Assembly (NCBI GenBank): GCA_036703275.1
Contig: DATNPK010000082.1
Coordinates: forward strand, 1 to 64,000
Origin: Coleofasciculaceae cyanobacterium
GTDB taxonomy: Bacteria; Cyanobacteriota; Cyanobacteriia; Cyanobacteriales; Xenococcaceae
Length of the DNA stretch: 64,000 bases
Direction of reading: 5' to 3'
Part shown: piece after piece, positions 6,727 to 60,677 of the stretch
Numbering within the stretch: position 1 is the stretch's first letter
Layout of the letters: each line of letters starts with the position of its first letter
Notes under the pieces: model-generated
Database searches by the model: none
Seen by the model: only the letters and a program-made list of their open reading frames with translations
What the model was told of the DNA's origin: nothing
Program-made: the position numbers and the translations under genes

Positions 6727-7866
6727 TTAAAGATTCTCGATCAACAAATCCAAATGTTGCTTTTTGTGAGTAGCCATTACAGATAAGCGAATACGGCTAG
6801 TGGGTACAGTCGGCGGACGAATTGCCGGGGCAAAGATGCCTGCATCTATAAGCTGTTGGGCTTTATCGAGTGCTGCTTGAGGAGTATTGAGATTAATGCA
6901 GAGAATGGGCGACTCCGAAGGCAGCAGTTCTAAATTTGATAGCTGTTGTTTGAGGTAATCGATATTTTGCCATAGTTTTTCTCGTCTCGATACTTCTTGC
7001 TTAACTATTTCGATTGCTTTAGTCGCTGCTACGGTATCGGCTGGAGATAATGCCGTGGTGTAAATCCAACTGGCGGCGCGGTTACGTAAAAAATCAATTA
7101 GTTCGACGCTACCTGCAACATATCCGCCAAGACTTCCTAAAGCTTTGCTGAGAGTCCCAATTTGAATTAGTTCTTTGCCAGTGCAGTTAAAGTGTTCGAC
7201 GCAGCCAGCACCAGTGCAACCTATTACTCCCGTAGCGTGTGCCTCATCTACCAAGAGCATACATTCAAATTCTTCGGCGATCGCCACTAATTCAGGTAAG
7301 GGGCATAAATCTCCATCCATACTAAAAACGCTATCAGTAGTAATTAAACACCGTCGATACAAGCTGCGGTTTGCGACTAACTTTTCTTTTAAGTCGGCAA
7401 CATTGTTATGTAAATAATCAATTGCGGTTGCACCACTAAGAATTGCTCCTTTTTTCAGGCTAGAGTGATTGTATCGATCGCCTAAAATTAAATCTTTTTG
7501 TCCGACTAAAGCCGATACCGTACCCAAATTAGCCAAATAACCTGAACTAAACACCAAAGCGTCGTCCGTTTGCTTAAGAGAGGCGATCGCATTTTCCAGT
7601 TCTTGGTGGATTTTTTTATGTCCACTTAATAACCGCGAACCAGTACTACCAGTACCATAAGCTTGAGTAGCAGCAACAGCCGCCTTAATTAATCGTCGAT
7701 CGACCGCCAGTCCTAAATAATCGTTACTGGCAAAGTTAATTACTAGCTTACCCGATAATTCTACTACTACTCCTGGTTTCCCAGCGATCGCTTTAACTGA
7801 ACGATACCAATTGGCACGATGAATCGTGTTTAGTGATTTATTGATCCAACTATATGCATTTGCCAC
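6727..7866 (-). CDS. bioF: 8-amino-7-oxononanoate synthase
   Basis: 379 residues with a GTG start at 7866. This PLP enzyme condenses pimeloyl-CoA/ACP with alanine to give KAPA, the first ring-forming step of biotin synthesis. Seen: FASNDYLGL near 45, [12 protein letters not shown], a YNHSS segment, VDEAHATGV, and the PLP lysine K241 in [10 protein letters not shown]. Length is normal for BioF. No other bio genes are in the window. The C-terminal domain of the large polyketide synthase at 43515-51185 belongs to the same alpha-oxoamine synthase family, so this stand-alone copy is useful for comparison. Confidence 0.92.
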
Positions 7867-16601: not shown

Positions 16602-16958
16602 TCAATCAAAATTTGTATACTTTTTATAGGTTTGATAATCGCGACGTAAATGATGGTTAACATAATTCCATTTAACTCCGCCCAGGCGGATATTTTTTTC
16701 CGAAAAATACCAGGTTACACTACAAAGAGCAAATAAACCTACGGCAGAAAGAATGGAAACAAAGCTGTTGTTAGTAACCAATAAAGATTTCGATAGCGAT
16801 GCTAACAAGGCTATAAATAAAAATCCAGACAAAGAAACAATTAAAAAATTAATCAGATCTTTTTCTGCCTTATCTTTTTGAATAAAAAAACTTGTGTTTT
16901 TATCAGCATATAAAGCAAGAATTAATAAACCAATAGCAGCAAAGATAAAAAAAGTCAT
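16602..16958 (-). CDS. Membrane protein of unknown function
   Basis: 118 residues from the ATG at 16958 (a TTG at 16970 adds four). Three or four membrane helices: about 1-17, 33-55 and 65-85, with a charged loop DKNTSFFIQKDKAEKD between the first two. The C-terminal tail is basic and aromatic (RRDYQTYKKYTNFD). No family recognised. Convergent with der. Confidence 0.6.
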   Translation of the reverse strand: MTFFIFAAIGLLILALYADKNTSFFIQKDKAEKDLINFLIVSLSGFLFIALLASLSKSLLVTNNSFVSILSAVGLFALCSVTWYFSEKNIRLGGVKWNYVNHHLRRDYQTYKKYTNFD

Positions 16959-17550
16959 GGTATTGTACAAAAAAATAAAGAGAGTTATCTTGTCATCTAA
17001 AATACGTTTTGCTCGCCAACATTGTTAATTAATGACTTCCTCGATTAGAGCGTTCATATATTTTATATTTTACCGCTTAAAAGCAAAATATCTTCTTATT
17101 TAATTAATACGTACGAGCAAATAAATATATGCAATATCGCTTAAATTGATTGCTATTGTAGACTATAATTACCATCAAAGGCTTGTATAGCTGCTCTTTC
17201 TAAAACAATCTCACAAAAGCATATCGATTAACTTTTTTAGGTCTTGTTGGCATAATTCTCACAAGCTTTACATCTTTATGTTGATTCTATAAAGCTGTTT
17301 AATTGAATTAGCAAGAGAAAGCTCCCTAAATCTAGTTAGCTTATTCTCTGCCTCTTGCTTGATAAAATGTAGAAGTACAACAACCGTTTAGCTATATATC
17401 TTTTTATTAAATGTGTCTTCTAACAATATTTCTTTTAGTTAATTGAGAATTTGCTAGACTTTTGATTAACTTCGATTTTCGATATTTTGCTCAATTCGAT
17501 TAACTTTTCCCGACTGTATTTTTATTGCTTATTCCTTAATTACAAATTAA
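16959..17550. other. Long non-coding interval upstream of the metal permease
   Basis: About 590 bp of very AT-rich sequence without a credible gene on either strand. It must contain the promoters for the divergent genes at 16602-16958 and 17551. I looked for a Zur- or Fur-like palindrome before the permease and saw no convincing one. Confidence 0.5.
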
Positions 17551-40570: not shown

Positions 40571-42079
40571 CTATTTCATGTCGTAGCCAAACAAATTAGC
40601 ATTTACCTCCACTAAATCAATATCTCCCAGACCGTATTCTTGCCAGCGTCTGGTGACCATTGCCGCTACATCATCATCAGATTCTAAAGGTTCGCCCCAC
40701 TCATGGTTGATTTCAGGAGGGATTTTAGTAGTTGCATCGATACCCATACGTCCACCAAGTCCAATTTTTTCACTGGCAAAATCAAGAGTATCAAAAGGTG
40801 TATCAGGCAGAATAAAAACATCGCGAGAGGGATCTACCTTGGAACTAATCGCCCAAACTACCTGACGAGGATCGCGGATATTAATGTTTTTGTCTACCAC
40901 AATGACAAACTTAGTGTAAGTAAATTGGGGTAAGGCACTCCAGAAAGCTAAGGCTGCTCTCCTCGCTTGTCCAGGATAGGCTTTATCAATCGAAATAATT
41001 GCTGCTTTGTAGCTTAAAGCCTCCATCGGTAAAAAGAAATCAACAATTTCCGAAACTTGCTGGCGCAGGATTGGAGTATAAATTCGATTAAGAGCGATCG
41101 CCATCATTGCCTCTTCTTTGGGCGGACGACCACTAAAAGTAGTTAAATAAATTGGGTCTTGACGATGGGTAAGACAATGAAAACGGACTAGAGGAGAATC
41201 TTCAACACCGCCATAGTAACCCATGTGATCGCCAAAAGGCCCATCAGGTAGCATTTCGCCAGGGGTAATTGTTCCTTCTAGGACAAATTCTGAATCGGCG
41301 GGTACTTCTAAATCGATGGTTTTGCACTTAGCTAGTTTTACGCCACTACCACCATACAGCCCGGCAAACAGCCATTCTGAAAGATCTACAGGAATCGGGG
41401 TTGCTGCTGCCATAATAATCATCGGATCGACTCCTAAAGCGATCGCAATTTCTAGTTTTTTGCCTGCTTCTGCTGCTTTACGCAGATGTCTAGCGCCACC
41501 CCGAACCGACAGCCAGTGAACGGTCATCGTATTTTTGGACTGTAGTTGGAGACGATATACGCCAACATTAGGTGTACCTGTCTCAACGTCTTTAGTGATG
41601 ACCAACCCCAAAGTAATAATCTTACCTGCATCTCCCGAATAGGGACGGATCATCGGTATTTTGTTTAGATCTACATCCTCTCCTTCAATTACTATCTGCT
41701 GGCAGGGCGGAAAGAAGTCTCTGCCTGGTTTGGCTTTGAGAACATCAAATAGTACCTTGCCAAAATCTACTGCCTGCTTAATTTTTTTTGGGGGTTTAGG
41801 CTGCTGTAACATAGCCAGTTTCGACCCCAAAGTTTCTAGCTCTTCTGGAGTTTCCATGTTCATTGACCAGCAAATACGCTCTACCGTTCCCATAAGGTTT
41901 ACCGCTACGGGAAAAGGCGATCCTTTGACGTTTTCAAACAGTAATCCAGGCCCTCCTGCCTGTAACATACGATTAGAAATTTCGGCAATTTCTAACTCAG
42001 GATCGACTAACGCTGAGATGCGCTTAAGCTGTCCTCTTGATGCCAAGATTTTAATAAAACCCCGTAGATCTCTAGCCAT
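40571..42079 (-). CDS. ubiD: UbiD-family decarboxylase
   Basis: 502 residues. UbiD uses prenylated FMN to decarboxylate aromatic acids; in cyanobacteria it removes the carboxyl group of the 4-hydroxy-3-polyprenylbenzoate intermediate of plastoquinone. Seen: MTVHWLSVRGGARHLRKA, the E-R-E-type catalytic region around DGPFGDHMGYYGG, and the C-terminal GRMGIDATTK. Length is normal. The partner UbiX and other quinone genes are not adjacent. Links functionally to the methyltransferase at 11663-12613. Confidence 0.93.
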   Translation of the reverse strand: MARDLRGFIKILASRGQLKRISALVDPELEIAEISNRMLQAGGPGLLFENVKGSPFPVAVNLMGTVERICWSMNMETPEELETLGSKLAMLQQPKPPKKIKQAVDFGKVLFDVLKAKPGRDFFPPCQQIVIEGEDVDLNKIPMIRPYSGDAGKIITLGLVITKDVETGTPNVGVYRLQLQSKNTMTVHWLSVRGGARHLRKAAEAGKKLEIAIALGVDPMIIMAAATPIPVDLSEWLFAGLYGGSGVKLAKCKTIDLEVPADSEFVLEGTITPGEMLPDGPFGDHMGYYGGVEDSPLVRFHCLTHRQDPIYLTTFSGRPPKEEAMMAIALNRIYTPILRQQVSEIVDFFLPMEALSYKAAIISIDKAYPGQARRAALAFWSALPQFTYTKFVIVVDKNINIRDPRQVVWAISSKVDPSRDVFILPDTPFDTLDFASEKIGLGGRMGIDATTKIPPEINHEWGEPLESDDDVAAMVTRRWQEYGLGDIDLVEVNANLFGYDMK

Positions 42080-43514: not shown

Positions 43515-46500
43515 CTAATTATCAGTATCCCGCTGCATTAGTCGTTCTAAAGTGTTCATCGTCAATTGAATTTGGGCTTCAGTATGCAGACAGGTAATAA
43601 AAAAGCGCAGTCGAGCAGCATCGTAAGGAACTGAAGGATATACCATCGGGTTGACATTAATTCCTGACTGATTTAAAAGTTGAGCTAAACATACTGCTTT
43701 ATGCGGCTCGCCGACAATAATTGGAATTACGGGAGAATCGGCACTATAGCCAGTGTTAAAACCTTTATTTTTAGCGAGATTGAGGCAAAATTTAGCTCTA
43801 CTTTGCAGTGCGATCGCTCTTTCTGGTTCAGATTTGAGCAATTTAATTGCAGCCAACGCAGCAGCGGTATTAGCAGGAGACATACCCACACTAAAAACAA
43901 ACCCTGGGGCAGTATATTTTAAATACTCAATCAATTCACGGCAGCCAGCAATATAGCCACCACAACTGGCGAAAGATTTACTGAGTGTTCCCATCCACAG
44001 ATCGACATCTGTCGATTTTAGCTCGAAGTGTTCTCTAATTCCCCCACCAGATAAGCCTAAGACACCGATGGAATGAGCTTCATCTACCAGTAGAAAGGTT
44101 TGATAATGCTGCTTCAATGCCACAATTTTGGTTAAAGGAGCAAGATCGCCATCAGTACTATAAATACCCTCGATCGCAATTAATACTTTTTGATATTTGC
44201 TTCTTTCTCGTTCTAAAATAGCTTCTAAAGCCTGACAATCGTTGTGGGGAAAATCAATAACTGTTGCCCCTGAAAGGTTACAGCCTTCTTTAATACTATT
44301 GTGACTTAGGGAATCGCAGATAATTAAATCCCGATTGCCAAAAAGATGCCCGATAGTACTAACGTTAGTAGCATGACCACCAACATAAACAATGGCATCA
44401 TCTGTACCAATAAGATTGGCTATTTCTCTTTCTAATTCTAAATGGATTGGACGCTCACCTGATAGTACCCGACTGGCAGAGACTGAAGTTCCGTATTGAG
44501 CGATCGCTTTTTGAGTAGCTGCAATCACTTCAGGATCTCCAGACATTCCTAAATAGTTGTAGCTGGAGTAATTAATTAAGATACGATTATCAGTTTGAAT
44601 CGTATCTTGGGCAATACCCTGATGCAGACTAAAGAAAGGATTACCCAATTTTTCGACTCGTGCTAAATCTTTTTGGAGATTGATATATTCGGGAGTTAGT
44701 TTGAATTGGCTATATTCTGGCTCGATCTCGAACTGGCTGGTTTTTATCGGTACAACTGCTGGTTTTTCCTGAAGGTTGTTTTTAGATGCAAAACTTGCAG
44801 GGTTATGAGGAAACATGGGTTCATCTTGTAAGCCTTGTCGCGCCTCTAGTATTTCCTCTATTTGCTGCACGGATATCTCTTTAGCTTGCTTTGGCTCTAT
44901 TTTCAGCAAAACATTCTCAGAAGATAATTCTTGGGCAATGTAATTGGTTAACAGTTCCACATTGGGATAATCGAATGCAGCCGTTAAAGATATGGCATTA
45001 CCCAGGCTAGCCTGTAGATGGTTTTTGAACTCTACCGCCATCAATGAATCCATACCGAGATCGGCAAATTTTTCTTGGGTATCGATATCTTCTAGATCGC
45101 TAAAGCCTAATACTTTGGCAATCTGCTCGCGAATATGTTCCTGTAAAACATGGTGCTGTTGGCTTTCTGGGGTTTGCGCTAATAGTTGCAAAAAGTCAGA
45201 AGCTAAAGTTGGTTCGATTTCCGTTTGGGGCTGTAATCTGGCAAAAAAAGGATTGGCTGGCTGTTGGCGTAAGAAAGTTGCCCAATCTACGGGGAAAATA
45301 ATCGTTTGATCCGCCTGTTGCTGCAATAATTGTTTTAGTACCTGTAGTCCTTGTTGGGGTGCGATCGCACTTAATCCTTGTTGCCTTAGTCTTTGCTGTT
45401 GCTGGAAACTTAAACGGCTAGCCATACCAACTTCATCCCAAATACTCCAGTTGATGCTCAACCCTGGTAAGCCTAAATTACGGCGATAGCTCATCAAGTT
45501 ATCCATAAAGGCATTAGCTGCCCCGTAGTTACTTTGCCCCGCTGCACCGAATACAGAAGCGATCGAAGAGAAACAGACAAACCAATCTAGAGGCAGTTTG
45601 GCGCTGGCTTGATGTAAATTCCAAGCACCCGTTATTTTTGGCTGCAATACTTTTTGGAAACGCTCCCAAGATAAGGTTTTTAGTAACCCATCATCGAGTA
45701 TTCCCGCTGTGTGAATTACTCCCTTGATGGGAGATGGAGAGGTAGCAAAAATTTGTTTTACAGCACGATCGTCGGTGATATCAACCTGGATGAAATTAAC
45801 TGTAACGCCTTGCTGTTCTAATTTGTTTATTTGCTGTTGAGCAGATGCTGAAGGCTCTTTTCTGCCTAGAAGAATTAAATTATTTGCCCCTTCTTCTACT
45901 AACCACTTAGCTACCAGTAAACCCAATGCACCCAAACCACCTGTAATTAAATAGCTGCCGTCAGCTTTGATTACCTGATTACTGGCAGGTAATGAGATCA
46001 CAACCTTACCAATATGTTTGGCTTGTGCCATATATCTAAAGGCATCATCAGCTTCGGTAATCGGAAAAACCTTATGGGGTAAAGGCTGTAGTTGGCGATC
46101 GCTAAACTGCTGCTGTAATTGGGCAAACAAAGAAGCAATTAACTCGGGATCTTGGTTAGAAACTTCTAATAAATCAAAAGGAAAATAACGAATATCTGCT
46201 CTTTTGGCTGCTACTTGCGCTCGATCCCAAATGCCCACCTTCCCAATTTCGATAAACCTTCCCCGGGGTGCCAGAATAGCTAAATTCTGCGGAATAAAAT
46301 CACCGTTGAGGCTATTGAGAATCAAATCTACACCCTCGCCATTGGTTAGCTGCATTACTTGTTCAGCAAAGTCGAGGTTGCGGGAATTCATTACATATTT
46401 AACTCCCGATGCCTTAAGAAAATCCCACTTACCTAACGAAGCAGTAGCATATACTTCAGCACCTATTTGCTGCGCTAACTGCACCGCAGCTTGTCCTACT

Positions 46501-49500
46501 CCACCAGCAGCAGCATGAATGAGAATTTTATCCCCTGACTTAATTTTAGCTAGATAATGTAGTCCGTAATAAGCGGTTAAAAAGGTTGTCGGAATCGTCG
46601 CAGCTTCGGCATAGTTGAGGTGTTCTGGTTTGGCGATCGCAAATTGAGCATTCACCGTTACATGGCTACTTAAGCTACCTACAGCTTGTGCTGCAATCAC
46701 CTCATCCCCTACTTGAAAATTAATTACGCCTTCTCCTACGGCTACCACAACTCCTGCACATTCACCACCAAAGGGTACTTCAGTTGAGTCGGCAAATCCC
46801 ATTGCTTGCAGATATTCTTGCAACACGCCTAAAGCATTTAAGACATCACGGAAGTTTACCCCACTAGCGGCTACTTCAATCTCAATTTCTCCAGGTTGAG
46901 GAAAGCGACGCTGTAAAGGTGCAAGAGTAAGATTGTCTAATGTGCCGTAGTTAGATAGTTGCAGTCGGTAGGGATTATTTAAGGTGTTGTCTTTAGGAGT
47001 CAGTCTAGCTACATATCTTTGATTATCGTGATACGCAACCTGAGTTTCTTCACCGGTAGATAGTAATTCTGGTAATAGCTGCTTGAAAACACGATCGCTA
47101 TTTAGATTATCGAAATCGATTAAGCTACAGCTTAAACTAGGATATTCATGCGCGATCGCTTTAACCAATCCCCATATCCCTGATAAATTATTTACTTTAT
47201 ATTGAGCTTGCTTGGTAACAACTGCTAGTTGAGTAAGGTTGAGATTTGCTGCTGCCAAAGACTGCATGAGATAGAAGATACTGGCGCAGTCTCGATCGTT
47301 AACAACGCCTGGTTCACTTTGATTGCAGAAATAAACAATTCTTAAATTAGCAGCGCGATCGTAATCTATAGTTTGCCATAACTGCTGAAAATCTTCGGGT
47401 CGATCGGGGTTAATCGTATATTGCGTATTTAATTTTGATGCAGTGAAGCGATCGCCTTTAGCCAGCAAGATACCCGATAATTGTGAGGTTATTTTTAGAG
47501 ATAGCTCGTTTTCTTGAGCAAATACCAGCCAAACATCGTTATTTTGAACCTGAAAGCGCTTTTTATTATCTAAATCCTGATTTTCCCAGTCAACTTCATA
47601 TAAAGAATGAGTGAGACTATTTTCGACTGCTGGAAGATCGATTAATTTCCGTAGAGATTGAAGCGAGAGATACTGCAAAGACAAGCCCTTTATTTGGGCA
47701 ACTAAATCACCAGAATCATCGATTAAAACCAAATTTGCGGTTAAAACGCGATCGCTTTGGGTAGACTTAATAGTTACATGAGTCCAAACCCGCATACAGC
47801 CTGGTTTAACTAGAGTCAAAGTTTCCATACCAACAGGTAGATAAACTCCTGAGTGAGATTCTGTTACCGTACCAATTAGCTGTAAACAAGCATCCAGTAA
47901 TGCGGGGTGAAGTTGATAATTATCGGCGCGATCGACAAGATTATCTGGTAGCTGAATATATCCTAGAGCTTCTCTTTCTCCCTGCCATATTTGCTTGATT
48001 CCCTGAAAGCTAATGCCGTAATTAAGCCCTTGTTTACTTAGTGTTTGATAATAATCGGCAATATCTGAATATGGTTGCAGTGAAGACTGTAATTGAGCTA
48101 AGTCTAGATTATTTCTCAAGCGATCGCATCTTTTAACTTCAACTTCGCTATGTAAAATAAATTTATCACCACCAGAAGCACAGCTAAAAATTTGTACTCG
48201 ATAAACTGAATTCGATCCAGGAGATAACACCGTCTGAAGTTGAGTAGTATCTCCTAAGATCAAAGGCTGTTTAATTAAAAACTGTTCGAGTCGTAAGTTG
48301 CAATCTGGGTAAATATATCGCCCTGCTGCCAGTGCCATTTCTAAGTAAGCCGTTGCTGGAAATACTATTGCTGATTCCAATCGATGATCTGGCAAATATT
48401 CAGGGCTATTAGCCTCAATTTGTCCCTGAAAACGGATTTCTGAAGTTGCAGCTAGGGTTAAGGGATTGCCCAGTAAAGGATGTAATGGCTGTTGGTTTAA
48501 ATTAGCTTCAGTCCAAAATTTGGCTCGATCCCACCAGTATCGTTGACGCTGAAAAGGATAAGTAGGCAGTTTGACACCTTGAGAATTACAATTGCGATTA
48601 AATGCTTGCCAGTCGATTTTGATTCCCTGGTGGTATAGTTGAGCAACACTATTTAAAATTACTTGCCAATCATCTTGTTGATGAGCCAGACTAGTCAGCA
48701 ACAGGGGAGAATAATTTATTTCAGTGGCTAAGATTGTTTTGCCGATGTTAGCCAGAATTGGCTTTGCCCCAACCTCCAAAAAAATATCAATTCCCTGCTG
48801 GAGTAAAAACTGGAAGCTGTCAGCAAATTTAACTGGCTGAATAATATGCTCTACCCAATAGTTAGGATTAGTAATATCTAGTCCTGCTAATTGTGCCGTG
48901 ACGTTAGAAACTAGAGAAATCTGGGGTGCAGTATAAGCTATTTCTGCTGCTATTTGACTAAAGTCTTCCAGCATAGGCTTCATTAACGGAGAATGAAAAG
49001 CATGAGAAACATCCAACGGAGTGCTGCTAATATCTATCTGAGCTAATTTAGCTTTAATTACTTTTAGAGTCTGACTGTTTCCTGCAATAACGATATTGCG
49101 ATCGCTGTTAATGGCAGCAATATTTACTTCTTGGTTATAGTTAGCAATCAACTCAGCAACTTCTACCTGACTACTAAAGATAGCTAGCATTCCCCCCGAT
49201 GAAGGTAATTCCTCCATCAGCAGGCCTCGATGCGCAACCAGCTTTAAACCATCTGCCAAACTAAAAACTCCTGCAATACAGGCTGCAACATATTCTCCAA
49301 TACTATGCCCCGCAACATAATCGGGTTTAATACCCCAAGCAAGCCACAATTGAGCCAGGGCGTATTCCAATGCAAAGATAGCGGGCTGGGTATATATTGT
49401 GCGGTTAATTTCCAGTTGTCGATCGCTGTCGCAATTAGAATTAGATTGGGTAAAAATTATTTCCAATAAAGGTCGATCTAAATAATATTCCAGAATAGCT

Positions 49501-51185
49501 GCACAGCGGTTTAATGCCTCCCGAAAAACAGGCTGGGTATTGTAGAGTTGTTGACCCATGCCGACATACTGCGAACCTTGTCCTGTAAACAGCCAACAAA
49601 TCTTCTTCGGCTGAGAATTAACAGTACTTACTTTCAATCCTGTTATCTCCTTGCCAGAGGTAAAAGCCGCCAGTTGCTTGTGTAACTGCTGAGTCGATTT
49701 ACTGATACAGCTAAGGCGATAATTAAAGTGACTTCGTTGTCTTTGAGTCGCTACACAAATTTCTGCTAAAGATTTATCTGTATCTTGAAGCAAAACTTGA
49801 TAACTTTGGACCAACTCCTGTAGTGCAGATTTACTCTTAGCCGAAATAGTCAGAAAATGTAGCGGAAGTAATTCTTGTTCTATCTCCCCATCTCCCCGTC
49901 GCCCCGTCGCCCCGTCTGCCATGACAACATGAGCATTCGTCCCGCCGAAGCCAAAGGAATTAACCCCAGTAATTACAGGTTTGTCTTGTTGCCAAGGAGT
50001 CAACTCTGTCACAACTTTTAGGTTTAAATCTTCAAAGGCGATCGCCCGATTAGGCGTATTAAAATGCAGGCTGGGGGGAATCTGCTTGTGTTTAAGTGCT
50101 AGTGCTACCTTGATAATCCCCGCAATACCTGCTGCGGTTTCGGTATGACCAATATTGGTTTTGACTGAACCAATTAAGCATTTTCCTGATTGACGATTTT
50201 TACCTAAAACTGCCCCTAAAGCATTGGTTTCAATCGGATCGCCCACTTTTGTTCCCGTACCATGCGCCTCAATGTAATCTACCTGCGCTGGATCGATACC
50301 GACGCGATCGTAAGCTTCTCGTAATACAGCCTCTTGAGCCTGGGGATTTGGTGCAGCCAATCCTTTGCTTAGACCATCCTGGTTGACCGCACTACTGAGA
50401 ATTACACCATAAATATCATCACCCTCTGCTTGAGCCTGAGAGAGAGGCTTTAATAAGATTAAACCTGCTCCTTCTCCCCTGACATAACCGTCAGCACTGG
50501 CATCAAAGCTTTTACAACGCCCCTCACTGGACATAAAGCCACCCTTGCTAAAACCCACCATAATCGTCGGCAGCAGCAGCATATTTACTCCACCAGCTAA
50601 AGCTAAGTCAGATTCTCCTGTCCAAATACTCTGACAGGCCAAATGAACCGCGACTAAAGATGAAGAACAAGCCGTATCTACTGCCAAACTTGGGCCTTTA
50701 AAATCAAAGCTATAGGAAATACGATTAGCTGCAATACAGTTTCCTGTTCCCGTTGTGGCGTAAGGTTCGCTTACAGGCTGTTGCCACATCATAATCGAGT
50801 AATCGTGTGTCCCAATACCAATAAAGACCCCTGTCTTGCTACCCTTTAAATCTTCGGGGATTTGACCAGCATCTTCTAAAGTTTCCCAGGCAACTTCTAA
50901 CAATAGACGTTGTTGTGGATCCATTGTTACCGCTTCTTTGGGAGCGATGCCGAAAAACTGGGGATCGAAGCGATCTATATCTTCAAGAAAACCACCCCAG
51001 CGAGTATTAGCTTTACCTGGTTTGCTTTGGTCTGGATCGTAATAAGAGTCTACATCCCATCTAGATGCGGGAACTTCGGATATTCCATCTCTGCCATCTC
51101 GAATCATTGACCAAAAAGCTTCAGGGTTGTTCGCGCCTGGAAAACGACAGCCTATACCAATAATGGCGATGGGTTCTAATTGCAT
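43515..51185 (-). CDS. Highly reducing polyketide synthase fused to alpha-oxoamine synthase
   Basis: 2556 residues. Domains in order: KS (1-425; C173, H308, H347), AT (about 528-830; S628 in GHSIGEY and HAFH at 728-731, the malonyl-specific signature), DH (about 900-1170; H934, D1098), a structural pseudo-KR (about 1195-1400), ER (about 1415-1735; AGGVGQ at 1560-1565), KR (about 1740-1975; GGLGALG, LDD at 1830-1832, Y1887), ACP (about 2010-2090; S2047 in GMDSLMA) and a PLP alpha-oxoamine synthase (about 2190-2550; VDEAH near 2368, K2403 in GTLSKSF). All active-site residues are intact and there is no methyltransferase or thioesterase. One fully reducing module should make saturated acyl-ACP, perhaps iteratively, and the last domain should condense it with an amino acid, losing CO2, to give a 2-amino-3-ketone. 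The arrangement equals a fusion of the fumonisin enzymes Fum1 and Fum8 minus methylation. Amino acid and chain length unknown. Confidence 0.95.
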   Translation of the reverse strand: MQLEPIAIIGIGCRFPGANNPEAFWSMIRDGRDGISEVPASRWDVDSYYDPDQSKPGKANTRWGGFLEDIDRFDPQFFGIAPKEAVTMDPQQRLLLEVAWETLEDAGQIPEDLKGSKTGVFIGIGTHDYSIMMWQQPVSEPYATTGTGNCIAANRISYSFDFKGPSLAVDTACSSSLVAVHLACQSIWTGESDLALAGGVNMLLLPTIMVGFSKGGFMSSEGRCKSFDASADGYVRGEGAGLILLKPLSQAQAEGDDIYGVILSSAVNQDGLSKGLAAPNPQAQEAVLREAYDRVGIDPAQVDYIEAHGTGTKVGDPIETNALGAVLGKNRQSGKCLIGSVKTNIGHTETAAGIAGIIKVALALKHKQIPPSLHFNTPNRAIAFEDLNLKVVTELTPWQQDKPVITGVNSFGFGGTNAHVVMADGATGRRGDGEIEQELLPLHFLTISAKSKSALQELVQSYQVLLQDTDKSLAEICVATQRQRSHFNYRLSCISKSTQQLHKQLAAFTSGKEITGLKVSTVNSQPKKICWLFTGQGSQYVGMGQQLYNTQPVFREALNRCAAILEYYLDRPLLEIIFTQSNSNCDSDRQLEINRTIYTQPAIFALEYALAQLWLAWGIKPDYVAGHSIGEYVAACIAGVFSLADGLKLVAHRGLLMEELPSSGGMLAIFSSQVEVAELIANYNQEVNIAAINSDRNIVIAGNSQTLKVIKAKLAQIDISSTPLDVSHAFHSPLMKPMLEDFSQIAAEIAYTAPQISLVSNVTAQLAGLDITNPNYWVEHIIQPVKFADSFQFLLQQGIDIFLEVGAKPILANIGKTILATEINYSPLLLTSLAHQQDDWQVILNSVAQLYHQGIKIDWQAFNRNCNSQGVKLPTYPFQRQRYWWDRAKFWTEANLNQQPLHPLLGNPLTLAATSEIRFQGQIEANSPEYLPDHRLESAIVFPATAYLEMALAAGRYIYPDCNLRLEQFLIKQPLILGDTTQLQTVLSPGSNSVYRVQIFSCASGGDKFILHSEVEVKRCDRLRNNLDLAQLQSSLQPYSDIADYYQTLSKQGLNYGISFQGIKQIWQGEREALGYIQLPDNLVDRADNYQLHPALLDACLQLIGTVTESHSGVYLPVGMETLTLVKPGCMRVWTHVTIKSTQSDRVLTANLVLIDDSGDLVAQIKGLSLQYLSLQSLRKLIDLPAVENSLTHSLYEVDWENQDLDNKKRFQVQNNDVWLVFAQENELSLKITSQLSGILLAKGDRFTASKLNTQYTINPDRPEDFQQLWQTIDYDRAANLRIVYFCNQSEPGVVNDRDCASIFYLMQSLAAANLNLTQLAVVTKQAQYKVNNLSGIWGLVKAIAHEYPSLSCSLIDFDNLNSDRVFKQLLPELLSTGEETQVAYHDNQRYVARLTPKDNTLNNPYRLQLSNYGTLDNLTLAPLQRRFPQPGEIEIEVAASGVNFRDVLNALGVLQEYLQAMGFADSTEVPFGGECAGVVVAVGEGVINFQVGDEVIAAQAVGSLSSHVTVNAQFAIAKPEHLNYAEAATIPTTFLTAYYGLHYLAKIKSGDKILIHAAAGGVGQAAVQLAQQIGAEVYATASLGKWDFLKASGVKYVMNSRNLDFAEQVMQLTNGEGVDLILNSLNGDFIPQNLAILAPRGRFIEIGKVGIWDRAQVAAKRADIRYFPFDLLEVSNQDPELIASLFAQLQQQFSDRQLQPLPHKVFPITEADDAFRYMAQAKHIGKVVISLPASNQVIKADGSYLITGGLGALGLLVAKWLVEEGANNLILLGRKEPSASAQQQINKLEQQGVTVNFIQVDITDDRAVKQIFATSPSPIKGVIHTAGILDDGLLKTLSWERFQKVLQPKITGAWNLHQASAKLPLDWFVCFSSIASVFGAAGQSNYGAANAFMDNLMSYRRNLGLPGLSINWSIWDEVGMASRLSFQQQQRLRQQGLSAIAPQQGLQVLKQLLQQQADQTIIFPVDWATFLRQQPANPFFARLQPQTEIEPTLASDFLQLLAQTPESQQHHVLQEHIREQIAKVLGFSDLEDIDTQEKFADLGMDSLMAVEFKNHLQASLGNAISLTAAFDYPNVELLTNYIAQELSSENVLLKIEPKQAKEISVQQIEEILEARQGLQDEPMFPHNPASFASKNNLQEKPAVVPIKTSQFEIEPEYSQFKLTPEYINLQKDLARVEKLGNPFFSLHQGIAQDTIQTDNRILINYSSYNYLGMSGDPEVIAATQKAIAQYGTSVSASRVLSGERPIHLELEREIANLIGTDDAIVYVGGHATNVSTIGHLFGNRDLIICDSLSHNSIKEGCNLSGATVIDFPHNDCQALEAILERERSKYQKVLIAIEGIYSTDGDLAPLTKIVALKQHYQTFLLVDEAHSIGVLGLSGGGIREHFELKSTDVDLWMGTLSKSFASCGGYIAGCRELIEYLKYTAPGFVFSVGMSPANTAAALAAIKLLKSEPERAIALQSRAKFCLNLAKNKGFNTGYSADSPVIPIIVGEPHKAVCLAQLLNQSGINVNPMVYPSVPYDAARLRFFITCLHTEAQIQLTMNTLERLMQRDTDN

Positions 51186-51465: not shown

Positions 51466-52110
51466 TTAACGAGGAAACTGTACCCCGACATACCCCATGA
51501 TGCTGTCTCTACCAGGATTTGCCCCAAATAGATCTGCATGGGAAATATGATGCCAGCGCAACCCCAACATTAGCCTTCGGTTATTTTTAAGCTTGATACT
51601 TGTACCAGCACCAGCTTGAGGCGTAAAGTTAAAGCTTGCTCCTGTACTGGGGACATCACTTGTTGTACCCATTACCCCCGCACCACCGTCAACATAAAGC
51701 GACCAGTTGGACTTACGCACAAAGTGCCAGCGCATCAAAAGAGCTAAGTTTAGCCCCAAAGCATCATCATCTGGTTGACTAAAATAAATGGTGTTTAATT
51801 CTAAATTAATACTATGACCATTGAACAGAAATTTGGATAATCCTGCACCTACTAAAGCAAAGCGTTGCGGAAAAGACTCATTCCTGTCTAGGGTAGTGGC
51901 TGCTGCACCCTGGATGTACCAGTGTTTTTGACCTTTAGTCCCAAAGGTAGGCTCAGATTGTGACTGCGGAATGCGTTTAGCCTGGAGTTGTTTAATTGGA
52001 GTTGAATGCGCGGGAGAGGGCGATCGCAAGAGTAACAACATCCCTACAAAAAACGTTATGCCATGATAGATGTTATTTTTATTGCTCAAAATAGTATTAT
52101 GCTTAATCAA
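51466..52110 (-). CDS. PagL-like lipid A 3-O-deacylase (acyloxyacyl hydrolase)
   Basis: 214 residues with TTG at 52110; the ATG at 52041 would shorten the N-terminus to the middle of the signal peptide, which is better with the longer start. The mature part is a small outer-membrane barrel and ends with the PagL catalytic segment RWHHISHADLFGANPGRDS, with the His-x-Ser pair, and FPR at the C-terminus. PagL removes the 3-position acyl chain of lipid A. Many cyanobacteria make unusual lipid A, so the true substrate could be another envelope lipid. Lies directly beside the polyketide synthase start, same strand. Confidence 0.75.
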   Translation of the reverse strand: MIKHNTILSNKNNIYHGITFFVGMLLLLRSPSPAHSTPIKQLQAKRIPQSQSEPTFGTKGQKHWYIQGAAATTLDRNESFPQRFALVGAGLSKFLFNGHSINLELNTIYFSQPDDDALGLNLALLMRWHFVRKSNWSLYVDGGAGVMGTTSDVPSTGASFNFTPQAGAGTSIKLKNNRRLMLGLRWHHISHADLFGANPGRDSIMGYVGVQFPR

Positions 52111-52167: not shown

Positions 52168-53937
52168 ATGTCTTATAAAAAATACCTACAGGCATTCGAT
52201 CTAACTTCAGTTATTTTACTGATAACTGTACTCTTGCTGGGAATCTTTTTTCGCTTTGCTAATCTGGATTATAAGGTTTTTTGGGTAGATGAAGTTTCTA
52301 CTGCCGTTCGAGTTTCTGGCTATACTATTCCCGAAGTTACTGATGATTTAATTCAACAAGGTATTGTCGATCGCCGTATTTTATCCTCATATCAAACTGT
52401 AAATTCAGCTAAATCTTGGCAAGATAGTTTTAATGCTTTAATCCAAAGCCCAGAACACGCACCACTTTATTTTGTCTTGACCAGACTATGGATGCAGTGG
52501 TGGGGAAACTCCATAGTGGCGATCAGAAGCCTGTCAGCTTGGTTGAGTTTATTAGTTTTTCCCTGTCTATATTGGCTATGCAAAGAATTATTCGATCAAC
52601 CGTTAGTTAGCCAGCTAGCGATAATGTTCATGAGTGTATCGCCTTTTTACGCCGCTTATGCTCAAGAAGCACGTCCTTATAGTTTATGGACAGTGACAAT
52701 TTTATTAATCAGCGTCAGTTTTTTGAGAGCAATTAGGCTAAATAATAAACTATCTTGGTTGTTCTATAGTTTTTGCTTGACTATTAGTTTTTATACTTCT
52801 TTATTTTCTATCTATATTGCCTTTTTCCAGGGTATTTATCTGTTATTGGTTCACCGACAAAGAAAGTTGAAGATCATCAAGAGTTATGTGATATCCTCGA
52901 TTATTGCTTTACTATTTTTTTCGCCTTGGATATTAGTAATTTTCAATAATTTTAACTTACTCAAAAAAAATACGAGCTGGATGAGAGGTAATTTTAACCT
53001 AGCTGATATTATCGCTGTTTTCATTGGCACAAATTTACTAGTTTTTGGCGATTTACCAATTTCTCAAAACTCTAATCCAGTTCAAACGGCAGTAGTTTTA
53101 ATTATTGTGGTTCTTGGTTTATTAGCTAGTCTTAAATTGCATCGGCGCTGGAAACAAAGACTCGTCAAGCTTGCTTTGCTACTAACTGCATCAAGTAGCA
53201 TCTTATTATTATCTCAATATATATATCTGGACTGGATAACTATAATTGGCGCATTAGTTGCCTTATGTATTTTAAGTCTATCCGTTTATTCTTTATACTA
53301 CTTGATAGCTCATACTAATCGCGATCGCTGGCTATTTATTCTGAGCTTAATGCTTTCTCTCCCAGTACCTCTAGTATTAACCGATATTATTAATCAGGGA
53401 CAAAGTTCAACTGCCCCGAGATATTTAATTCCCTTACAGTTGGGAATCTTAATTGCCGTGACATATACTTTGGCTAATAAATTGGCAACGATTGATGTTA
53501 AGTCGGTAAATCAACAAAAATTCTGGCGGTTAATTGTAATTGCTTTTATCAGCTTGGGTATTTATTCCTGCATACGCAATCTAAGCTTGTCGCCATTTTA
53601 TCAAAAAGGAAGAAATATTAATAATCCTGCGATCGCAAAAATAATTAATCAAAGTAATTCTGCTTTAGTAACTACAGAATATAATGGTGCGATGGATGCT
53701 GTATCTTTGGCTTATTCTTTGATAGAAAAAGTTAAATACAAAATTATTACTCCTGAAGAAAAATTAAATCAGTATTTTAATCAATTCGATGATATATATG
53801 TTCTCAAACCTTCTCTAGAGTTAAAAGAAAAACTAGAAAATAATCAAACAATTAATTTTAATCAGGTATATAAATCCCATGTATTTAGTGCTGATGAATT
53901 TCCTCTAGATCTTTATATAGTCGAGCTAGCTACTTAA
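52168..53937 (+). CDS. GT39-like polytopic glycosyltransferase
   Basis: 589 residues with about 11-12 membrane helices. The first periplasmic loop contains the acidic pair in FWVDEVSTAVR (near 38), the general-base position of GT-C enzymes (PMT/ArnT type) that use polyprenyl-phosphate sugars. A second loop has the AQEARPYSLW motif typical of the family. It probably transfers a sugar to a lipid or polymer on the outer face of the membrane. Twelve bp separate it from the GT4 gene, so the two form an operon. Confidence 0.85.
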   Translation: MSYKKYLQAFDLTSVILLITVLLLGIFFRFANLDYKVFWVDEVSTAVRVSGYTIPEVTDDLIQQGIVDRRILSSYQTVNSAKSWQDSFNALIQSPEHAPLYFVLTRLWMQWWGNSIVAIRSLSAWLSLLVFPCLYWLCKELFDQPLVSQLAIMFMSVSPFYAAYAQEARPYSLWTVTILLISVSFLRAIRLNNKLSWLFYSFCLTISFYTSLFSIYIAFFQGIYLLLVHRQRKLKIIKSYVISSIIALLFFSPWILVIFNNFNLLKKNTSWMRGNFNLADIIAVFIGTNLLVFGDLPISQNSNPVQTAVVLIIVVLGLLASLKLHRRWKQRLVKLALLLTASSSILLLSQYIYLDWITIIGALVALCILSLSVYSLYYLIAHTNRDRWLFILSLMLSLPVPLVLTDIINQGQSSTAPRYLIPLQLGILIAVTYTLANKLATIDVKSVNQQKFWRLIVIAFISLGIYSCIRNLSLSPFYQKGRNINNPAIAKIINQSNSALVTTEYNGAMDAVSLAYSLIEKVKYKIITPEEKLNQYFNQFDDIYVLKPSLELKEKLENNQTINFNQVYKSHVFSADEFPLDLYIVELAT

Positions 53938-53949
53938 GTAGGTAAATTC

Positions 53950-55182
53950 ATGAAAATAGCAATAATTTGTTCTAGCTTTTTTCCAGTAATTGATGGAGTA
54001 ACGATCGCGGTATATAAAAGGCTGGAACAGCTTAGTATTTTAGGACATCAAGTAATAGTATTTTGTCCAGACTATAAACCGATTAAATATATTTATCTAG
54101 ATTATCAAAAATATACAGGTAAAATATTTTCTGGCGTAGAAATAATTAGCTTACCTAGTAGTAAAGCGATCGCCTTAGATTTTGAGCGAGATGTAACTAT
54201 TAATTCTTATCAAATTGTGATTAAAGAATTAGCCAAATTCAAACCTGACATTATTCATGTTGATGAAGCTGAAAGATTAGGTGTTTGCTTGCTAAAACTA
54301 CCAGGAGTTAAGTACGCCAGACAAAATAATATCCCTTGTGTGGCATGGTTTCATACCAACTATATTGATTATTTTGATGACTATTTTGATTTGCCTTTAG
54401 AATTTAATAAATTAATTAAAAAGATATTAAGCTTCATCTTTGCCAAAATTTATAATTCTTATGACTTAACTTTAGTATCGAGTCCAAATACCGCTCAAAA
54501 GATTAAAAATATCGCGGTTAAAAATATATATTTTGCTGAACTATTAGGCTGCGATATAAGCCAATTTAATCAGATCAAAAGAACTAGCAATTTTTTTACC
54601 GAACAATATAATTTACCTCATCTAGACAATAAAATAAAACTAATCTTTATCGGACGTTTAACTCCAGACAAAGGTTGGAATTTTGCAGGCGAATCATTAG
54701 CCGAACTACCACGAGAAATATTAGATAAAATAGCAATTATCATTGCTGGAGATGGAACACTTAAAAATCAAATAGAACAGACTTTAAAACAGATAACGTC
54801 CAACATCTATTTACTAGGTAGAATTGCGCCCGAAACTGTACCCGAACTACTAACCAATGGCAATATATTTATTACCAATTCCGAAAAAGAAACCAGGGGA
54901 CTAACAGTTATAGAAGCTGCCGCTGCGGGAATACCTGCGATCGCGCCCCGCGCTGGAGGGGTTGTTGATACTATTAAAGATGGCTCAACTGGCTTTTTAT
55001 ATCAACCTCAAAACAAAGCAGATTTTTTAAATAAACTGACTCTATTAATTTCTGATGATAACTTACGACAGTCAATGGGAGCAAAAGCTCAACAAATAGC
55101 TCAACAATGGAATTGGAAGCAAACTGTTAAAAATTTAGTCGAGATTTGGAAAAAAGAAATAATTAAAAATAAGTCTAACTAA
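53950..55182 (+). CDS. GT4-family glycosyltransferase
   Basis: 410 residues, GT-B fold. The N-terminus reads IAIICSSFFPVIDGVTIAVY, as in GT4 enzymes such as sulfoquinovosyl/mannosyl transferases. The nucleotide-sugar side has FIGRLTPDKGW (about 232-242), an EKETRGLTVIEAAAAGIPAI segment carrying the E-x7-E motif and a GGVVDTIKDG segment. It probably adds a sugar to a lipid acceptor at the cytoplasmic face. Acceptor unknown; placement near the polyketide/FAAL genes raises a glycolipid, but this is inference. Confidence 0.88.
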   Translation: MKIAIICSSFFPVIDGVTIAVYKRLEQLSILGHQVIVFCPDYKPIKYIYLDYQKYTGKIFSGVEIISLPSSKAIALDFERDVTINSYQIVIKELAKFKPDIIHVDEAERLGVCLLKLPGVKYARQNNIPCVAWFHTNYIDYFDDYFDLPLEFNKLIKKILSFIFAKIYNSYDLTLVSSPNTAQKIKNIAVKNIYFAELLGCDISQFNQIKRTSNFFTEQYNLPHLDNKIKLIFIGRLTPDKGWNFAGESLAELPREILDKIAIIIAGDGTLKNQIEQTLKQITSNIYLLGRIAPETVPELLTNGNIFITNSEKETRGLTVIEAAAAGIPAIAPRAGGVVDTIKDGSTGFLYQPQNKADFLNKLTLLISDDNLRQSMGAKAQQIAQQWNWKQTVKNLVEIWKKEIIKNKSN

Positions 55183-55834: not shown

Positions 55835-56962
55835 ATGAAAAAACAACCAACTACACGAGTACCAGTTTTATCACCATCAGGTGAACCGCTTATGCCGACA
55901 ACCTCAGCACGAGCAAGAAAATGGATAGCTGCGGGTAAAGCAGAGTCCGTATGGAACGATCTTAAAGTATTCTGCGTACAGTTACTACAAGAGCCATCTG
56001 GGGCTGAAACTCAAAAAATTGTAGCTGCTATAGATCCAGGTAAATTTTGGTCGGGCTGTGCCTGTATTTCACAAAAAGCCGTACTGTTTACTGCTAACTT
56101 GATTTTACCGTTCAAACGGGTAGTAGCCAGGAAACAAGCACAAAAAATATTGCGTCGAGCCAGACGAGGAAGACGTATTAATCGCAATTTACCCTTTGAG
56201 CTTCGCGCTCATCGCCAAAAAAGATTTAATAATCGTAGAGGAAATAAATTACCTCCAAGTATACGCGCCTCAAGACAGCTTGAACTCAGAATTATTAAAG
56301 AACTAACTCGAATTTTTCCTGTTTCTGAGATTGTTTATGAATATCTCAAGGTAGATGTAGACCTAACTTCTGGTAGAAAAAAAGCCCTTTCTGGTAAAGG
56401 CTTTAGCGTTGTAATGGTCGGACAAAAATATATGCTGCAATGGTTGTCTGAGGTTGCGCCTACCTACAAATTAGAAGGTTGGCAGACTTCAATTATTCGC
56501 AAGCAGTTAGGACTTCCAAAAAATAAAGATAAAAGCTCTCAAAATGTTTCAGCACACGGCAATGATGCTATTGCCTTGGCTGCTAGTAGATTTATGAAAT
56601 ACAAAGCTTTTCATACTTCCAATTCTCGTGGACATCATTGGGTTGGCTCAATTCAATTAACTAATGCGCCGTTCAAAATAATATCTCATCCTCAACTGTA
56701 TAGAAGACAACTGCACTTTGAGAATCCAAACAAAGGTGGAATAAGAAGGCGCAAGGGCGGAACTGTTACCCCGTTTGGATTTAGAAGTGGCGATTTGGTT
56801 CAAGCTACTAAAGGAAAAGTAACGATAAAAGGTTATATCGGTGGCTATTCAGAAGTAAATAAGGTTGTTGCTATCTACGACCACAACTGGAAAAGGTATG
56901 GGCAGTTTCGAGTTTCAAAAACAAATTTATTAAAAAGGAGCAATGGACTATGTGTCGCATAA
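55835..56962 (+). CDS. isrB: IsrB RNA-guided nickase (RRXRR/RuvC protein lacking HNH)
   Basis: 375 residues. PLMP motif at 18-21 in an RRXRR-type N-terminal domain, RuvC-I with D67 in AAIDPGK, an arginine-rich bridge helix (RRARRGRR, 107-114), RuvC-II with E169 in IVYEYL, and RuvC-III with H241 and D244 in HGNDAIALAA. Only 72 residues separate RuvC-II from RuvC-III, too few for an HNH domain, so this is IsrB and not IscB. C-terminal part (about 290-370) is a basic beta-rich region like the TAM-interacting domain. IsrB proteins nick the strand unpaired from the guide. The reading frame is intact and the catalytic residues are kept, so the element may be active. Confidence 0.88.
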   Translation: MKKQPTTRVPVLSPSGEPLMPTTSARARKWIAAGKAESVWNDLKVFCVQLLQEPSGAETQKIVAAIDPGKFWSGCACISQKAVLFTANLILPFKRVVARKQAQKILRRARRGRRINRNLPFELRAHRQKRFNNRRGNKLPPSIRASRQLELRIIKELTRIFPVSEIVYEYLKVDVDLTSGRKKALSGKGFSVVMVGQKYMLQWLSEVAPTYKLEGWQTSIIRKQLGLPKNKDKSSQNVSAHGNDAIALAASRFMKYKAFHTSNSRGHHWVGSIQLTNAPFKIISHPQLYRRQLHFENPNKGGIRRRKGGTVTPFGFRSGDLVQATKGKVTIKGYIGGYSEVNKVVAIYDHNWKRYGQFRVSKTNLLKRSNGLCVA

Positions 56963-59093: not shown

Positions 59094-60677
59094 ATGCTGA
59101 AGAGGTTTAAAAGTATTAAGTATGGTTTTTTATTGGCGATCGCGATTTTAATTACAGTTGCGATCGCGCAATCGGCTATCCCCGCCGAGAGAATTGATTT
59201 TAACTACAGTCTGCTGGGTTTTAACCTCAAAGTTAAAGATCTTGAATCCTTTGCTAAAGACGGAAAGGTAAGCAATAGTCTGAATTTTTATCTCAAGCGC
59301 ATATCGCCGCAGCAAACCACGCAGTTACAGAAATTTCTGCAACAGAGTTACGATGTCGATCCTGTCTTAGTCTATCGTTATTCCCGTACTTCTGTAGGAA
59401 TTAGGATGTTGCAACGCATTGGCGAGATTATTCAGCTACCTGGCTATCTCAATGGTTTTTATGGTTTGCGTGCTGCGGTGGTACAAACTGCTGCATCTGC
59501 TGAAGGAATTAATTTGGTTGATTTTCTCAAGCGTTTTCCGACGGATATTCAACTCAACCTAGAGGAATTACTTAAGCTGGTTAAACAAGTTGCTGATGCA
59601 GAAGCAAACACCAAGGATTTTATTGCTGGCTTAGAAGATAATCGCCCAGGCGCAAAATTTGATTCTAAAAACGTCCCTGAGTTTTCACAGCTGGGAGTAT
59701 ATAAAACTAGCAAACAAACTTTAGAATTTTACGATCGCACTCGCGATCGCAATTTAGTTACCGATCTTTATTTACCACAAGGCAAAACCGATACTATTCC
59801 CGTAATTGTGGTTTCTAATGGTTTGGGTGCTAAACGCGATCGCTTTGATGAGTTAGCCAATTATTTAACTTCTTATGGCTTTGGGGTAGTTATTCCCGAT
59901 CATCCAGGAAGCGATCGCTACCGCCAAAAAGCTTTTTTAAAAGGATTATATCAAGAGAACTTTGATGCCACTGATTTTATCGACCGTCCCCTCGATATTA
60001 GCTATATACTAGACGAATTAGAGCAAATTAATCAAAAAAATGGCAATAATCAGCTTAATCTAAAACAGGTAGGTCTTTTTGGCTATTCTATTGGCGGGAC
60101 AACCGCTCTTTCTTTGGCAGGGGCGGAGATCGATTTTGAACAATTAGAACAAGCCTGCGCTCAACCGCTGAATTTGCTGAATATTTCGATTTTGTATCAA
60201 TGCCGTGCTTTGGAATTACCCAGACAAAAGCACTCGCTCAAAGACGAACGGATTCAGGCTGCGTTTATGTTTGTGCCTTTTGGCAACAGTATTTTTGAGC
60301 GAGAAACTCTAGCTAAAATATCTATCCCGATTATGTGGCAGGTTGTTGACCGAGATTTCTTGACTTCTTTATTAAAAGAACAAGTACCATTATTTGAGGC
60401 TTTAAAAAGTGGCGATCGCTATTTGGTAATTTCTCAAAATCTACCCCACTCTAACGTTACTTTATCAAATGAGCAGCGATCGAGTCAAGCAAAAGCTTTT
60501 GAAGTGGCTAAAATATATCAAAATATTTTATCTTTAGTTTTTTTCCAAAATTATCTGGCTGGTAATAAACAATACCAACCTTATTTAAGTTCAGAATATA
60601 TTCAGGCAATTGAACAAGAACCTTATGAACTTCATTTAATTGAACCGACTTCGCCTCTACGAGATATGTCAGACTAA
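59094..60677 (+). CDS. DUF1400 alpha/beta hydrolase
   Basis: 527 residues. A signal or anchor segment (about 8-28), a DUF1400 domain (about 30-160: ERIDFNYSLLGFNLKVKDLE onwards) and a C-terminal alpha/beta hydrolase with the nucleophile serine in GLFGYSIGGTTALSL (about 325-340). DUF1400 hydrolases are cyanobacterial and of uncertain substrate, probably lipids or esters in the periplasm. The 24-bp gap to the acyl-AMP ligase implies one transcript. It may process or release the product of that pathway. Confidence 0.85.
   Translation: MLKRFKSIKYGFLLAIAILITVAIAQSAIPAERIDFNYSLLGFNLKVKDLESFAKDGKVSNSLNFYLKRISPQQTTQLQKFLQQSYDVDPVLVYRYSRTSVGIRMLQRIGEIIQLPGYLNGFYGLRAAVVQTAASAEGINLVDFLKRFPTDIQLNLEELLKLVKQVADAEANTKDFIAGLEDNRPGAKFDSKNVPEFSQLGVYKTSKQTLEFYDRTRDRNLVTDLYLPQGKTDTIPVIVVSNGLGAKRDRFDELANYLTSYGFGVVIPDHPGSDRYRQKAFLKGLYQENFDATDFIDRPLDISYILDELEQINQKNGNNQLNLKQVGLFGYSIGGTTALSLAGAEIDFEQLEQACAQPLNLLNISILYQCRALELPRQKHSLKDERIQAAFMFVPFGNSIFERETLAKISIPIMWQVVDRDFLTSLLKEQVPLFEALKSGDRYLVISQNLPHSNVTLSNEQRSSQAKAFEVAKIYQNILSLVFFQNYLAGNKQYQPYLSSEYIQAIEQEPYELHLIEPTSPLRDMSD

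Follow-up and report, generated by a model that had tools for sequence, protein, structure and literature searches.

The window analysed here is a stretch of 64,000 nucleotides from a Coleofasciculaceae cyanobacterium (contig DATNPK010000082.1, positions 1 to 64,000), and our subject is a gene on its minus strand, at 43515..51185, that forms one open reading frame (ORF) of 2556 aa with an ATG start and zero internal stops. The plus-strand frame over the same positions is riddled with stops. The encoded protein, PKS-AOS, joins a polyketide synthase (PKS) module, made up of ketosynthase (KS), acyltransferase (AT), dehydratase (DH), enoylreductase (ER), ketoreductase (KR) and acyl carrier protein (ACP) in that order, to a pyridoxal phosphate (PLP)-dependent alpha-oxoamine synthase (AOS), with every domain above its Pfam cut-off (Table 1). 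The Aminotran_1_2 match of the AOS reaches 156 bits against a cut-off of 19.7. This agrees with the initial annotation, made from the letters alone, which had described one protein with these six domains and a C-terminal PLP enzyme, and had left out the strand. Neither a methyltransferase nor a thioesterase is among the 23 Pfam families listed for the protein. Its reducing module is complete; however, the further claim that every step towards a saturated chain resides in this one protein is too strong, because Pfam found no loading domain in it.

Table 1. Features of the window, with the evidence on which each assignment rests
Feature	Position	Strand	Evidence and remarks
PKS-AOS fusion protein, 2556 aa	43515..51185	-	ORF and Pfam
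Ketosynthase (KS), residues 4-375, C173/H308/H347	50061..51176	-	Pfam and motif scan
Acyltransferase (AT), residues 531-839, GHSIGEY and HAFH	48669..49595	-	Pfam and motif scan
Dehydratase (DH), residues 902-1176	47658..48482	-	Pfam and motif scan
Enoylreductase (ER), residues 1430-1730	45996..46898	-	Pfam and motif scan
Ketoreductase (KR), residues 1743-1918	45432..45959	-	Pfam and motif scan
Acyl carrier protein (ACP), residues 2017-2083, S2047	44937..45137	-	Pfam and motif scan
Alpha-oxoamine synthase (AOS), residues 2202-2540, PLP lysine K2403	43566..44582	-	Pfam Aminotran_1_2, tree, PDB sequence match
PagL-like outer-membrane barrel	51466..52110	-	Homologues close to PKS-AOS (G011, G395) or adjoining GT39/GT4 genes (G392, G387)
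PMT_2/GT39-type membrane glycosyltransferase	52168..53937	+	Full-length relatives of at least 44% identity in 10/10 PKS-AOS genomes and 2/15 others
GT4 glycosyltransferase	53950..55182	+	Homologues in the Planktothrix p3 and G011 clusters
Acyl-AMP ligase, FAAL type, 643 aa	57138..59069	+	Named after an annotated Planktothrix homologue (55.5% identical); scores with NCBIfam FAAL models stay under the respective cut-offs
DUF1400 alpha/beta hydrolase	59094..60677	+	Relatives of at least 50% identity over most of the length in 9/10 PKS-AOS genomes and 1/15 others
Separate BioF (control, outside the pathway)	6727..7866	-	NCBIfam bioF, 456 bits against a cut-off of 426

A motif scan finds DTACSSS (C173), EAHGTGT (H308) and NIGHTE (H347) in the KS, GHSIGEY (S628) and HAFH (728-731, which we take to be a malonyl signature) in the AT, H934 and D1098 in the DH, Y1887 in the KR, S2047 in the ACP, and H2295, D2368, H2371, K2403 and R2527 in the AOS; the single residues named are the presumed catalytic ones. 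The protein thus has the complete domain and residue set of a fully reducing type I PKS module together with the PLP lysine, PLP-binding His/Asp/His and substrate-binding Arg of a PLP fold type I AOS. The annotation's statement that all catalytic residues are intact is borne out, with K2403 at the exact position given; the sole small departure is a DH motif that reads HxxxS where HxxxG is usual. Fused frames of this kind, 2465-2769 codons long and including that of the window, occur 13 times in 13 distinct genomes or records, so the architecture is not a product of chance or misassembly. PKS-AOS is a real, conserved enzyme: its chemical logic is known, and what is new is the fusion of the two parts and the multi-gene setting in cyanobacteria.

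The kinship of the AOS domain was determined with a maximum likelihood tree of 59 rows (supports are given as pairs). The 13 PKS-fused AOSs form one clade (99/99) within a 42-row set (100/100) that also holds other cyanobacterial AOSs, many of them linked to an ACP or to a FAAL (a fatty acyl-AMP ligase) plus ACP, and six proteobacterial AOSs of the SgaB/RkpG type. Six cyanobacterial BioFs, among them the one from the same genome as the window, make up a separate clade (100/100). Support for grouping the cyanobacterial AOS rows to the exclusion of the SgaB/RkpG rows is weak (86/66). The long branches (E. coli BioF, ALAS, serine palmitoyltransferase (SPT) and others) are unsurely placed; among them is the only classical SPT row, from Sphingobacterium, which joins the tree at an open fork. 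A second, arbitrarily rooted tree, which includes a further fusion from genome G391, returns the 13-row fused split at 100/99, and the AOS of that further fusion falls outside the main fused clade. In identity the domain stands at 48-51% to the SgaB/RkpG type, 37-40% to cyanobacterial BioF-type proteins and 32% to E. coli BioF and Kbl. Its top PDB sequence match is SPT, at 245 bits, where the next kind reaches 209. The four SPT residues H137, H212, S242 and R366, named in PMC3870968, are all matched by the same amino acid when the domain is aligned to 3a2b (positions counted by hand).

That the C-terminal domain is instead a BioF-type enzyme for biotin or a pimelate-like product is extremely improbable. 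The NCBIfam bioF model does score highest of the AOS models on this domain, yet its 354.5 bits fall below the curated cut-off of 426.45, which the separate BioF encoded in the same genome passes, and the two proteins lie in different clades of the tree; on these grounds the BioF identity was rejected. Grouping with biotin BioFs was the outcome that the initial annotation had singled out as damaging to its own proposal, and neither the tree nor the NCBIfam cut-off places the domain there. The serine preceding the PLP lysine was considered as an SPT marker and discarded, as it is also found in 5/5 other cyanobacterial BioFs and in 3/4 of the remaining BioF rows. For the PKS half, the KS tree recovers a fused KS clade (96/96) and an SgaA/RkpA-type KS clade (100/100) next to other cyanobacterial KSs, with no supported order among them that would derive this half from either the SgaA line or cyanobacterial PKSs; the KS is 51-57% identical to cyanobacterial PKSs and 43-52% to the SgaA/RkpA type.

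The initial annotation had called the fused form unusual. It is no one-off: PKS-AOS is present in 10/25 genomes sampled from the same family, AOS and KS searches returning the identical ten, and in eight of these the fused frame is intact (the other two, G390 and G395, have their KS end on one contig and their AOS end on another). In a phylum-wide sample, an AOS of the wider kind (identity of at least 49%) occurs in 19/386 cyanobacterial genomes and an AOS within a frame of at least 2465 aa in 4/386, own genome included. Each genome was counted once, loci L013, L014, L015 and L016 belonging to G388, G391, G402 and G390, and L017 and L019 both to G395. Outside the family, full-length fusions are found in Leptolyngbya sp. 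FACHB-8, on plasmid p3 of Planktothrix agardhii (51% identical over 2552 aa), and in G011, G296 and G123. Culturable carriers include Xenococcus sp. PCC 7305 and Planktothrix NIVA-CYA 126/8.

The p3 copy lies in a region of ~29 kb that also encodes a FAAL, two GT39 proteins, a GT4 protein, a GT-C membrane protein, an alpha/beta hydrolase, an SRPBCC protein, KS fragments and a FAAL-PKS. Five of these kinds have homologues in the window between 52168 and 62709 (FAAL 55.5%, GT39 34-43%, hydrolase 42%, membrane protein 44.5% and GT4 50% identical), and three more, namely a FAAL-PKS, an SRPBCC protein (38%) and a KS piece (a 356-aa ORF), are on contig C64 of the same genome. The C64 FAAL-PKS has 2750 aa in the order FAAL-ACP-KS-AT-DH-ER-KR-ACP and is 46% identical to the Planktothrix FAAL-PKS over its whole length; a 589-aa ORF beside it was rejected as the KS piece, being an aconitase-family protein. 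In G123 the FAAL-PKS ends 3 bp upstream of the PKS-AOS start. The PagL-like barrel of the window is 53% identical to its G011 counterpart.

Among the 25 family genomes, 10 with PKS-AOS and 15 without, these partner genes are concentrated in the carriers (one-sided Fisher tests). The GT-C protein (at least 50% over most of its length) and the GT39 protein are each found in 10/10 carriers and 2/15 others (p = 2e-5 for both), the hydrolase in 9/10 and 1/15 (p = 5e-5), the FAAL-PKS (at least 60% over the whole query) in 8/10 and 2/15 (p = 0.0015), and the FAAL (at least 55%) in 9/10 and 5/15 (p = 0.007; the five include G399, with 55% over residues 32-544). Some copies are broken: the GT-C copy of G388 is split by a stop into two frames, and the GT-C and FAAL copies of G402 are each in two pieces. 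The annotation's description of the system as single-gene logic is thus not supported, as a FAAL-PKS, a stand-alone FAAL, membrane proteins of glycosyltransferase type and a hydrolase co-occur with PKS-AOS.

A candidate for the reduction of a 3-ketone product is a KDSR-like short-chain dehydrogenase/reductase (SDR). In G296 an SDR reading frame overlaps the end of PKS-AOS, and the G011 cluster has an SDR 60% identical to it, ~13 kb from PKS-AOS. The top PDB match of the G011 protein is the 3-ketodihydrosphingosine reductase TSC10 (123 against 101 bits), as it is for a 63% identical copy in the genome of the window (102.5 against 89.7). The G011 protein is also 45% identical to the SDR of a Sinorhizobium meliloti locus where PKS, AOS and SDR genes stand in a row. 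We take these three to be RkpA, RkpG and RkpH of the rkp-1 region. The S. meliloti system differs in that its proteins are unfused, in its polysaccharide-export setting, and in an AOS that is ~48% identical to that of the window. A further SDR (L129, near G392) fell loosely among the KDSR-like SDRs and was dropped because its identity is only 33%.

We give a probability of about 0.68 to the proposal that cyanobacteria have a pathway towards a glycosylated sphingoid-like lipid in which PKS-AOS is the last megasynthase and releases the chain. Domains, catalytic residues, AOS kinship, co-occurrence and neighbourhoods are read from sequence; every reaction, the chain length, the number of rounds, the amino acid and the sugar are predicted. 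An acyl-AMP ligase would activate a fatty acid and load it onto a carrier protein, and the chain would be lengthened with malonyl units and fully reduced by the FAAL-PKS, encoded elsewhere in the genome, together with PKS-AOS. The AOS would then use a decarboxylated amino acid, L-serine being the likeliest, to attack the acyl chain on the ACP and so yield CO2 and a long-chain 2-amino-3-ketone, which an RkpH/KDSR-like reductase would convert to an amino alcohol and membrane glycosyltransferases would decorate with sugar. Decarboxylative release to a 2-amino-3-ketone without acyl-CoA had already been predicted in the annotation, and the kinship of the domain (a non-BioF AOS with SPT as its best solved relative and, in the same set, AOSs of the SgaB/RkpG type that work beside a PKS) supports it by inference.

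Several observations weigh against this proposal or limit the evidence for it. The identity cut-offs for the partner genes were picked after viewing the lists, partial matches were excluded and the genomes are related, and therefore the Fisher values overstate the association. The excluded matches comprise GT-C fragments above 50% in G399, a stop-containing 54% hydrolase fragment in G403, GT39 matches over about half the length in about ten genomes, and KS-only matches of 60-64% to other PKSs. In the single-contig genome G392 the genes are dispersed, with PKS-AOS at 2.18 Mb and its partners at 2.11 (FAAL and hydrolase), 2.39 (GT39), 4.10 (GT-C) and 0.63 Mb (FAAL-PKS), and so adjacency is no explanation for their co-occurrence there. 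PKS-AOS was not found in G386 (81% complete), which has GT39, FAAL and FAAL-PKS, nor in G408 (96% complete), which has all five partners, through either gene loss or an assembly gap. The KDSR-like SDR is present in 23/25 family genomes and is therefore not specific to PKS-AOS, and in the genome of the window the two are on different contigs. An AlphaFold model of the AOS (pLDDT 80) ranks SPT with L-serine first, but Kbl and other AOSs follow so closely, their E values differing by about two orders of magnitude at most, that the margin is negligible.

Serine is the likeliest substrate because the AOS is kin to SgaB of Pseudomonas fluorescens MYb115, a proven SPT that, as shown in PMC12134224, uses L-serine almost exclusively, and on which, with the PKS SgaA, the C24-C28 sphinganines of that organism depend. 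The SgaB-type rows that share the 100/100 set with the cyanobacterial AOSs are plasmid-borne homologues of the MYb115 protein. The PLP and substrate residues H, D, H, K and R are common to 59/59 AOS rows and therefore do not fix the amino acid. A homocitrate/isopropylmalate-synthase-like (HMGL-like) gene, moreover, is present in 7/10 PKS-AOS genomes and 2/15 others (p = 0.0065). In G011 it directly precedes PKS-AOS in the same orientation, and in L020, a contig that ends inside the PKS after ~334 residues, it directly precedes the KS start, again in that orientation. In G011 and six family genomes, seven in all, no more than 5 kb separates it from the FAAL-PKS. These associations hint that the amino acid or the starter may be a special one. 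Relatives of a fused LeuD-LeuC-type dehydratase likewise occur at the FAAL-PKS locus of the same genome, in G392 and in the G011 region; on C64 (L147) the HMGL-like enzyme (6271-7419) and the fused LeuD-LeuC-type aconitase (16537-18306) flank the FAAL-PKS.

These genes would fit a variant in which release proceeds as above with a homologated or otherwise unusual amino acid, supplied by the HMGL-like enzyme and the dehydratase, and the resulting aminoketone lipid would bear a larger side chain, as in the vitroprocines (Tyr/Phe plus polyketide), for which labelling suggests such a release (PMC4523872). We regard this variant as unlikely, if worth keeping in view: no HMGL-like match was found in bases 1-53128 of Planktothrix p3 (its chromosome lay outside the search) or in G123 or G296, all of them PKS-AOS carriers; SgaB, the nearest characterised relative, takes almost only L-serine; and neither a dedicated dehydrogenase nor a transaminase was noticed in the scanned loci, although no search was aimed at either. 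A slightly less probable alternative accepts the aminolipid but makes it a lipid anchor or carrier for extracellular polysaccharide, with no free metabolite, as proposed for the Sinorhizobium rkp-1 region, whose products are said to supply the lipid carrier with which K antigen is secreted (PMC4881576). Plasmids of Sinorhizobium, Paraburkholderia, Caballeronia and Pseudomonas have PKS and AOS homologues, adjacent or one gene apart, amid polysaccharide-export, capsule or lipoteichoic acid (LTA)-synthase-like genes, and two GT-C/GT39-type membrane proteins and a GT4 protein are linked in the window. However, a capsule export gene is absent from the nine window neighbours scanned and from the annotated Planktothrix genes seen, and P. 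fluorescens SgaAB makes sphinganines and phosphoglycerol sphingolipids according to PMC12134224. It is about equally doubtful that a FAAL-primed pathway of two fully reducing megasynthases, the second with a tethered SPT-like enzyme, could be the genetic basis of a class of glycosylated sphingoid-like lipids in cyanobacteria whose amino acid comes from a dedicated keto-acid homologation branch and is not serine.

In the fungal fumonisin pathway, a reducing PKS (Fum1) builds a chain that an AOS-type PLP enzyme (Fum8) releases; the two are separate proteins, the amino acid is alanine, and Fum1 carries a methyltransferase domain. PKS-AOS has no such domain, and its likeness to Fum1 and Fum8 is one of described architecture. 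The "fumonisin-like logic" of the initial annotation is apt for a PKS chain released by an AOS, but this comparison is distant and the nearest characterised system known to us is the bacterial SgaAB (PMC12134224). There, as in PKS-AOS, a mono-modular PKS works with a PLP AOS, and a KDSR-like reductase is proposed for that system. SgaA and SgaB are two proteins where the window has one polypeptide, and the window system further differs in its FAAL, FAAL-PKS, GT39/GT-C/GT4 and hydrolase partners. The A-CP-PLP2 proteins (FAAL-ACP-AOS type; Milano 2013, PMC3870968) resemble PKS-AOS in having an AOS fused to a carrier protein, and four cyanobacterial FAAL-AOS proteins fall within the 42-row set; they lack elongation domains, and a fatty acid would be used as supplied. 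In the AasR/AcpR/SPT system of Caulobacter and relatives (PMC9386255), acyl-ACP, not acyl-CoA, feeds the AOS; the system consists of three free proteins and has no PKS.

Fungi use PKS and AOS as two proteins to make fumonisin, and a bacterial counterpart, SgaAB, has been known since 2025. The fused form and the cyanobacterial setting appear to be unreported. No report of a cyanobacterial PKS-AOS fusion was found in the open-access literature, as judged by titles and abstract starts; PMC13291983 contains neither "oxoamine" nor "sphingo", and PMC11334938 names cyanobacteria in its references only. According to Belton et al. 2022 (PMC8895605), two ceramides have been reported from cyanobacteria, but neither a sphingolipidome nor the underlying genes had been described, no enzyme of sphingolipid metabolism had been characterised, and a BioF-type AOS was the only one they found in Nostoc punctiforme. 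The earlier screen in Nostoc concentrated on C14-C20 bases. The PKS-AOS family provides a concrete candidate for cyanobacterial sphingoid-base genes, and its interest is good because the genetics of such lipids becomes testable, by gene deletion and lipidomics. It also offers a natural PKS-to-aminoketone release domain that is already fused to a carrier protein.

AOSs of the wider, non-biotin kind extend beyond the fusion. Such an AOS is present in 25/25 family genomes, as a non-fused frame of 536-582 aa in 24 and as a contig-edge fragment in G390, and an ACP match precedes the non-fused AOS in 16/16 family genomes with extracted DNA. Because an ACP-AOS-type frame is found in 24 of the 25 and a fragment in the last, every sampled family member may make some aminoketone lipid. 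The copy in the genome of the window is a 546-aa ACP-AOS protein (G000:C60:27595-28812; L079 7194-8834), ~60% identical to the end of PKS-AOS and located between sigma-factor genes. Other cyanobacteria encode FAAL-ACP-AOS proteins in frames of 1085-1693 aa (L083, L039, L040, L091), which are candidates for a direct conversion of fatty acids to aminoketones. The further G391 fusion (L141, G391:C55, 52-4380) reads by eye as AT-DH-KR-ACP-AOS without an ER and is cut at the contig start; it adjoins a KDSR-like SDR and a sulfotransferase-like ORF (6019-6894 and 6952-8097), both labelled from their sequences.

Within the window, a 375-aa RRXRR-domain protein (55835..56962, plus strand), which we take from its appearance to be IscB/IsrB-like, is interposed between the GT4 and FAAL genes. 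Downstream of PKS-AOS and on its strand are an endonuclease-dU-type gene (PF01949; 42484..43068) and UbiD (40571..42079), both seemingly unrelated neighbours.

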